This document shows positions 37,062 to 41,490 of a stretch of DNA of 64,000 bases, piece after piece. The stretch is taken from NCBI RefSeq assembly GCF_013386115.1, contig NZ_JACAOR010000013.1, positions 124,001-188,000 of the forward strand, given 5' to 3'. A program made the translations under genes and the position numbers. This stretch comes from Pseudomonas gingeri (lineage in GTDB: Bacteria; Pseudomonadota; Gammaproteobacteria; Pseudomonadales; Pseudomonadaceae). Each line of letters starts with the position of its first letter. Within the stretch, counting starts at the first letter, position 1. Under the pieces are notes generated by a model. The model made no database searches, had not been told where the DNA came from, and was given only the letters and a program-made list of their open reading frames with translations.

Positions 37062-37077
37062 TCAAATTCAAATTTGA
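37062..37077. promoter_or_regulatory. Candidate PhlH operator
   Basis: TCAAATT-CA-AATTTGA is a 7-bp inverted repeat with a 2-nt spacer in the phlH-phlG divergent gap, 16 nt upstream of the phlH start codon. Its position fits repression of both phlH and phlG by PhlH; this is inference. Confidence 0.55.
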
Positions 37078-37189
37078 CTTTTATTTATACACGGCTTAGT
37101 TTCAAATCAACCACTCCCCTCGACAGGCGTGGACGCTGCCGACAGATGCTGTCAGGTCCACAGCCGTTTAGCCAAAGGAAATTACCGCA

Positions 37190-38116: not shown

Positions 38117-38719
38117 TCAGCGTTGCCCCGCCGGACACACACCGTTTATCAGAAGCGTCGTAAATTCCCCGATATCCTGTTCCGCTGTCAGTTGCTCGGT
38201 CAGCAGGCGATACCAGCAAAAACCGAAGATCATATCGAGCAGCAATTCGCGATTGGTGTCCTTTGGCAGTTCACCATTACTGATGGCATTTTCCACCAGC
38301 TTCTTCGGCATCTCCCGCCGCCGTTCCATGAACTGGTCCTTGAGCTGGACCAGGGTGACCGGATCCAGCTGGGCCTCCGCGATGACACAGCGAAAAGCCT
38401 CGCCACAAATCGTCTCACGCCATACCTTCCAGAGATTGTGCAGCAAAAAGTCGAGATCTGCCTTGAAAGAGCCGAGATCAGGAAACTTCCTCACCTGCTC
38501 GCTTTCATTCTCGTAAACCTCGGCGATCAACGCCGCCTTGTTGTTCCACCAACGGTAGATCGTCGGCTTGCTGGCACCCGCCCGTCGGGCGACCGACTCG
38601 ATACTGAGTCCCGAATAACCGCATTCCTTGAGAATCTCGATCGTCGAACTGAGGATGGCCTTGTGGGTGTGGGGGCTTCGTAGGGAACCGATGGAGCTGC
38701 GAGAGGGTGTACGAGCCAC
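38117..38719 (-). CDS. phlF: TetR-family repressor PhlF
   Basis: A 200-residue TetR repressor that blocks phlA transcription and is released by DAPG. The start is the GTG at 38719, giving (M)ARTPSRSSIGSLRSPHTHKA, which is the published N-terminus, and GGAG sits eight nucleotides upstream; the ATG at 38755 is not the real start. The helix-turn-helix reads GLSIESVARRAGASKPTIYRW. The gene is divergent from phlA with a 456-nt gap holding two palindromes. Confidence 0.96.
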   Translation of the reverse strand: MARTPSRSSIGSLRSPHTHKAILSSTIEILKECGYSGLSIESVARRAGASKPTIYRWWNNKAALIAEVYENESEQVRKFPDLGSFKADLDFLLHNLWKVWRETICGEAFRCVIAEAQLDPVTLVQLKDQFMERRREMPKKLVENAISNGELPKDTNRELLLDMIFGFCWYRLLTEQLTAEQDIGEFTTLLINGVCPAGQR

Positions 38720-38742: not shown

Positions 38743-38770
38743 TTGACAAAAGCAACGCAAGGTATAGGAT
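38743..38770 (+). promoter_or_regulatory. Candidate phlA sigma-70 promoter
   Basis: A perfect -35 TTGACA at 38743-38748, a 16-nt spacer and a -10 TAGGAT at 38765-38770 point rightward, just outside the phlF start codon. Transcription would begin near 38776-38778, inside the left arm of the 37-nt palindrome, leaving a leader of about 400 nt before phlA. Not tested; the -10 matches four of six positions. Confidence 0.55.
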
Positions 38771-38775
38771 TCCCT

Positions 38776-38812
38776 CGAAATGAAATGAAACGGTCCGTTT
38801 CGTTTCATTTCG
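38776..38812. promoter_or_regulatory. Primary PhlF operator (phO-like)
   Basis: A 37-nt palindrome centred on 38794 with 17 of 18 pairs matching. On the minus strand bases 38808 to 38784 agree at 21 of 25 positions with the PhlF operator core I remember (ATGATACGAAACG...). It overlies the presumed phlA start point and lies about 57 nt from the phlF start codon, so PhlF may repress both promoters. Confidence 0.75.
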
Positions 38813-38960
38813 ATGAAACTATGAACGACTGACTTAGATCAATCTGTTTTCCGATTTTCTCATTAGCGTGCAGGAAACAAAGCCTTCTGCTCAGGGCATC
38901 CCCCATCAGTCGGCAGCTGTTTTTTCCACTTATGAAATCAAGTCATTTGTTTTATGAATC

Positions 38961-38981
38961 AAACGATACGTTTCGTATCAT
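38961..38981. promoter_or_regulatory. Second, shorter PhlF operator-like site
   Basis: On the minus strand ATGATACGAAACGTATCGTT begins as the PhlF operator core does, but lacks five bases of its middle, bringing half-sites GATACG and CGTATC to a 3-nt gap. It lies within the predicted phlA leader, 185 nt downstream of the first operator and 194 nt before phlA. Confidence 0.5.
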
Positions 38982-39160
38982 AGCAGCTTGAGAGGTAAAA
39001 AGGCAATATTTGGCACGTTTTCAGACCCATCGGTCGAAAACGCCAAGTAGTTGAAATCACTGGATAAAACGGCGTTCCCAAGACTCAGGGCTCTACAAAC
39101 TGTTTTCCGTATGTTTCACGGTGTCTGGCAAGACGCCACCAGGGTTTTCTGACAAAGAAT

Positions 39161-39175: not shown

Positions 39176-41490
<2,315 letters not shown>

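Follow-up and report, generated by a model that had tools for sequence, protein, structure and literature searches.

Two sites of one PhlF-type operator design between phlF and phlA in a Pseudomonas gingeri phl cluster, one of them containing the published PsrA box at the predicted phlA start

The interval between phlF and phlA in a stretch of 64,000 nucleotides of Pseudomonas gingeri DNA (hereafter the window) carries two sites that share a 19-bp core, AYGAWACG-N3-CGTWTCRT, each without a mismatch (Table 1). Each has been published before, though not under one name: the promoter site (site 1) as a binding site for the regulator PsrA and the leader site (site 2) as the PhlF operator phO. New here are the common design of the two sites and the findings that they are unique in the searched genomes and occur exactly where phlA does. 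We consider it probable that site 1 is a second PhlF-type operator, lying over the phlA start and shared with PsrA, and that phO serves as a downstream block, the two working without a loop.

The window carries a phl cluster for 2,4-diacetylphloroglucinol (DAPG), with open reading frames in the order phlH, phlG, phlF, phlA, phlC, phlB, phlD, followed by further genes. phlG scores above its own NCBIfam cut-off; the other names were assigned from the order of the genes and from matches to PhlA and PhlF. The closest named relative is Pseudomonas gingeri D8001, with a PhlA identity of 98%. The phlF protein presumably starts at the GTG at 38719, and the same alignment column reads CAC or CAT (GTG or ATG) in relatives; a longer ORF with a TTG start was set aside in its favour. 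Regarding phlA, both TTGACAA and GGTATAGGAT of its promoter are unchanged in all 17 distinct sequences compared, and the transcription start used below is predicted from this promoter match. A phlF promoter overlapping site 1 was also considered but seems unlikely: a minus-strand TATACC lies opposite the phlA -10 hexamer, but no convincing -35 was seen, and the promoter prediction for the window gave no minus-strand promoter at this place. In P. fluorescens 2P24, phlF expression is reported to be unchanged by the loss of PsrA (PMC3510223). As a side observation, the best NCBIfam match of PhlA is hydroxymethylglutaryl-CoA synthase, and five archaeal loci with 37-41% identity were among the PhlA relatives, in agreement with the idea of an archaeal origin (PMC8003664).

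Table 1. Features of the phlF-phlA and phlH-phlG intervals, in positions of the window
Feature	Position	Strand	Remarks
phlH-phlG intergenic AT-rich block AAATTCAAATTTGACTTTT	37064..37082		invariant in 6/6 clusters compared, two of them identical
phlF, TetR-family repressor	38117..38719	-	GTG start at 38719 picked by inspection
phlA promoter, sigma-70-like	38743..38770	+	-35 TTGACA 38743-38748, -10 TAGGAT 38765-38770, spacer 16 nt
Site 1, whole palindrome	38776..38812		37 nt, centre 38794, 17/18 pairs
Site 1, PhlF-type core ATGAAACG-GTC-CGTTTCGT	38785..38803		0 mismatches to AYGAWACGNNNCGTWTCRT
Element published as PsrA box, GAAAC-N5-GTTTC	38787..38801		letters found here; reported in PMC3510223
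Site 2, 24-bp composite, counterpart of published phO	38958..38981		overlapping registers 38958-38976 and 38963-38981
Site 2, best PhlF-type core ACGATACG-TTT-CGTATCAT	38963..38981		0 mismatches
phlA, first gene of the DAPG biosynthetic operon	39176..40264	+	ATG at 39176

The palindrome at site 1 was recovered with the length and pairing given in the initial annotation, which had also placed it on the presumed phlA start point. It begins 6 nt downstream of the -10 hexamer and spans about +1 to +37, so that its placement holds in relation to a start that is itself predicted. The letters GAAACGG..CGTTTCG are unchanged in 17/17 distinct sequences, including the inner G and C, although the PsrA consensus does not require them. 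The distance from the start of the -35 hexamer to the centre of site 1 is 51 nt in 18 of 19 loci and 50 nt in one, and this near-constant distance indicates that site 1 is fixed to the promoter, whereas its same-register distance to site 2 ranges from 131 to 185 nt; part of its conservation could stem from the adjoining promoter. The spacing between GAAAC and GTTTC is five nucleotides (N5) in all 19 loci. One locus (L016, genome G353) has a right arm of site 1 that is 10 bp longer than in its relatives, comprising two 5-bp repeats, a pattern suggestive of slippage that adds half-site units; the left arm in the window can likewise be read as GAAAT repeats.

Each of the two sites is a 24-bp composite whose half-sites are set 5 bp apart, giving two overlapping 8-3-8 registers per site. 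Scored out of 8, the four half-sites of the window reach 8, 6, 8 and 8 at site 1, and those of site 2 reach 7, 8, 8 and 8. The core pattern follows from the phO half-sites ACGATACG, ACGAAACG and ATGATACG; although it was written with knowledge of both sites, it can be derived from the site 2 alleles alone, 16 of the 17 distinct ones fitting it and the exception (L004/L015) having one mismatch. Site 2 (38957-38981) is 84% identical to site 1 over 25 nt. Compared with the phO of a corrugata-type locus (L019), sites 1 and 2 each align ungapped and match equally well, at 20/24 positions; together with the next outward base, judged by inspection, this accounts for the 21 of 25 positions at which site 1 had earlier been said to match the PhlF operator core. 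The claim that the second site lacks five middle bases did not survive: besides the ungapped match to phO, a MAFFT alignment of the 17 distinct sequences shows no internal gap in site 2, and a five-base deletion was therefore rejected. Nor do the half-site spacings differ as 3 against 8. They are 3 bp at both sites, and the value of 8 arises from the outermost half-sites of the same 24-bp composite. A 5-bp insertion or deletion between lineages may have occurred, given that AACGATACG and TTTCGTATCAT each appear again 5 bp further on; the 8-3-8 design would stay unchanged by it.

In the window's own genome (7.35 Mb) exactly two perfect matches to the core were found, namely sites 1 and 2, against an expectation of 0.012 calculated from the base composition of the window. 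At up to two mismatches the window contains four matches, a number not attained in any of 100 shuffled versions of it. Neither site is a chance occurrence. Allowing one mismatch added two places in the genome, the other register of site 2 and C11:186036, and at up to three mismatches the core was found at 161 places compared with 89 for a reversed control, so that only near-perfect matches are meaningful. Comparison of 19 phl loci, 17 of them with distinct intergenic sequences (L003 equals L014 and L015 equals L004; the archaeal PhlA relatives L006-L010 were left out of all operator counts), showed the core to fit at site 1 in 19/19 loci and at site 2 in 17/19. The initial annotation had reported two PhlF-type sequences around the phlA promoter and had suggested comparing the leader across phl clusters; both sites, that in the leader included, are conserved in 17/17 distinct sequences. 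Its labels, on the other hand, do not hold, as it took the site with the PsrA box for the PhlF operator and phO for an odd second site.

Across the genus, a perfect core was present in 14 of 396 Pseudomonas genomes, and these are the same 14 in which phlA was detected (match at E <= 1e-60, among 398 genomes, a set of slightly different size), whereas the reversed pattern gave one match each in two of the 396 (G025 and G216). Two further searches for phlA, with 4/292 and 13/327 genomes positive, returned only members of these 14. The core of site 1 has no mismatch in any of the 14; of the 13 besides that of the window, all have a perfect site 1 and 12 also a perfect site 2, the remaining genome (G292) having one mismatch in site 2, and no perfect core was found in these 13 outside the phlF-phlA interval. 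A plasmid search yielded three records only, each with a 2% stretch under a type III polyketide synthase. Among 12 TetR-family sequences matched in the search for solved structures none was named PhlF, the best being 2fq4_A (E 1.7e-24).

Judged by position as well as sequence, site 2 is the counterpart of the published phO and not an additional site. Citing papers place phO downstream of the phlA start and name a single PhlF operator (PMC8003664, PMC11273644); binding of PhlF to phO is reported for other strains (PMC8003664, PMC3510223), and a phO-like site is described in the phlF-phlA region of Pf-5 (PMC12724241). For 2P24, the distance from the PsrA box to phO, which is the downstream one of the two, is given as about 120 bp (PMC3510223). 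The centres of sites 1 and 2 are 131-132 nt apart in corrugata-type loci and 173-178 nt apart in the window, the value varying with the register chosen. A 30-base sequence taken as phO equals the reverse complement of the letters of L019 and L021 at site 2, and was not found in the text of the papers searched. Release of PhlF by DAPG and MAPG has been published for phO.

Some further features of the leader were noted. A block CAAACTGTTTTCCGTATGTTTCA at 39096-39118, some 60-80 nt upstream of phlA, shows high conservation among most of its positions in protegens-type loci and has a diverged counterpart in corrugata-type loci; a 23-nt copy of it, 78% similar, lies at 38840-38862. The alignment, viewed by eye, also suggests that GGTGTCTGGCAAGACGCC (39120-39137), ahead of the ribosome-binding region, may form a hairpin in the leader, with differing counterparts in other loci. 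In P. protegens FD6 (L003), Vfr is reported to bind upstream of phlF and phlG (PMC8160232), so a further regulator may act near the phlF-phlA region.

The case for PsrA at site 1 comes from work on 2P24 (Wu et al. 2012, PMC3510223), where the palindrome GAAACN5GTTTC was described as well conserved in phlA promoters. PsrA, a TetR repressor tied to fatty-acid metabolism, shifts this element in gels and a 3-bp substitution abolishes the shift; disruption of the box makes a phlA fusion unresponsive to PsrA, a psrA mutant shows phlA expression raised about 3-fold, and overproduction of PsrA lowers DAPG even without phlF (all PMC3510223). By this published test in 2P24, PsrA can bind the element that site 1 contains. 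The initial annotation had proposed that another TetR protein such as PhlH might use one of the sites, which agrees in kind with the published results, although the protein is PsrA and the site that at the promoter (PMC3510223). The gel shift and the box disruption also allow that site 1 is a PsrA box only, in which case phO would be the sole PhlF site and the two sites would resemble each other through convergence of TetR operators that share GAAAC/GTTTC; the lost gel shift, the 3-fold rise and the effect of excess PsrA without phlF all speak for it, yet on balance we regard it as unlikely. The N5 spacing of site 1 falls outside the published PsrA consensus of N2-4, the rpoS site of P. putida having N4 (PMC13104628). 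The promoter of the genome's own psrA carries the boxes GAAACGTATGTTTC and CAAACAAGTGTTTG, both N4 as reported for psrA of 2P24, and a search that used the N4 pattern by design and covered psrA promoters found both in 14/14 genomes with phlA; in every case 28 nt separate the first box from psrA. The PsrA-matching gene of the window's genome scores 233 bits against the NCBIfam PsrA model, under its cut-off of 300, and stands beside a lexA-like gene. In the same genome GAAAC/GTTTC occurs with N2-6 at 41 places, 13 of which (counted by eye) are N5, site 1 included, whereas the PhlF-type core is found only at sites 1 and 2, the longer pattern being rarer in any case. Furthermore, the published 3-bp substitution would damage the PsrA box and a PhlF half-site alike. 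The conserved letters of site 1 thus agree more closely with a PhlF operator than with a PsrA box.

The hypothesis that PhlF bound at both sites represses phlA through a DNA loop, raised earlier on the supposition of unequal spacing, now appears very improbable. Same-register spacings of 131-132, 163, 173-176 and 185 nt correspond to 12.5-12.6, 15.5, 16.5-16.8 and 17.6 turns, roughly in phase as a loop would have it, but when the best-scoring registers are used, the corrugata-type loci, at 12.5-12.6 turns, no longer share a phase with the remaining loci, at 16.0-18.1. Two overlapping registers per operator leave the natural phase ambiguous, and the comparison covers few and related lineages. 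When a second phlO was placed in E. coli with its centre 63 bp from that of the first, a distance that differs from the natural 131-185 nt, nothing changed with native PhlF; loops required PhlF fused to the C-terminal domain of lambda cI for oligomerisation, and PhlF is said to be unable to form higher-order complexes (PMC10468489).

If transcribed, the palindrome of site 1 would form a 17-bp RNA hairpin, and we therefore weighed whether it acts as RNA at the 5' end of the phlA mRNA, affecting stability or translation. The predicted hairpin of the window has -20.2 kcal/mol, with 0 of 200 shuffles as stable; however, what is conserved in site 1 is the sequence itself, with 14 invariant positions, and not merely the pairing, and in corrugata-type loci the hairpin is weak, at -7.7 kcal/mol with z between -1.8 and -2.4 in the three distinct cases folded and z -0.8 with longer flanks. 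An RNA role accounting for the palindrome is accordingly given little credence.

Least credible of all is that one of the two sites serves PhlH, as the initial annotation had suggested as a possibility. PhlH is the cluster's other TetR regulator, and DAPG acts on both PhlF and PhlH (PMC8003664), but the papers locate PhlH at the phlG promoter (PMC8003664, PMC11878095, PMC11273644). The phlH-phlG interval carries a conserved block of its own, AAATTCAAATTTGACTTTT, that is unlike sites 1 and 2 and would be a candidate PhlH site; no PhlF-type site was found in this interval, the best fit being 9-10 of 16 positions in 6/6 clusters.

The reading that we prefer treats the phlF-phlA interval as holding two operators of one class. 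As site 1 has the 19-bp core of phO, PhlF should bind it, and bound there would block initiation, while PhlF at phO would block the elongating polymerase; the two sites would act separately, without a loop. PsrA, as published for 2P24, also acts at site 1. Expression of phlF is reported to peak in the logarithmic and that of psrA in the stationary phase (PMC3510223), so that once DAPG has removed PhlF from site 1, PsrA may replace it there, occupying the site in stationary phase when psrA expression is highest. A stronger version is that the 'PsrA box' is primarily a second PhlF operator in every examined phl cluster, handed from PhlF to PsrA as DAPG accumulates, with phO remaining specific to PhlF; we put this forward tentatively, at somewhat less than an even chance. 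In the literature passages searched no report of PhlF binding at site 1 was found, and this negative is weak: Abbas 2002 had noted several palindromes in the region (PMC3510223), so that site 1 may have tested negative there. PhlF has been tested on operator DNA between phlF and phlA, the stretch being unspecified in the passages covered (PMC11878095), and those of PMC9304865 contain nothing about either site.

PhlF and phO are in use as parts in synthetic biology (PMC11659477, PMC10468489) and as the model for DAPG autoinduction, both described with one operator. Should PhlF bind at the start point, the natural promoter would be a two-operator switch, mutation of the 'PsrA box' in published phlA reporters would have disturbed a PhlF site as well, and competition of PhlF and PsrA for one site would tie antibiotic output to fatty-acid status.

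With regard to known systems, the PhlH operator upstream of phlG is a TetR-family operator of the same cluster, like the two sites described here, but the conserved block in its region is AT-rich and different. The 24-bp inverted repeat that phlO is described as holding (PMC11659477, PMC10468489) fits the 24-bp composites of the window. To phO, as known from papers citing Abbas et al. 2002, site 1 bears the likeness of core and alignment given above; it differs in lying over the predicted transcription start instead of in the leader, and it is not called a PhlF site in the literature passages covered. The PsrA box of the 2P24 phlA promoter is the same GAAACN5GTTTC element, likewise upstream of phO. 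Its N5 spacing contrasts with the N4 of the boxes in PsrA's own promoter, and in distinction to the reading made for 2P24 the element in the window is read here as part of a longer PhlF-type operator.
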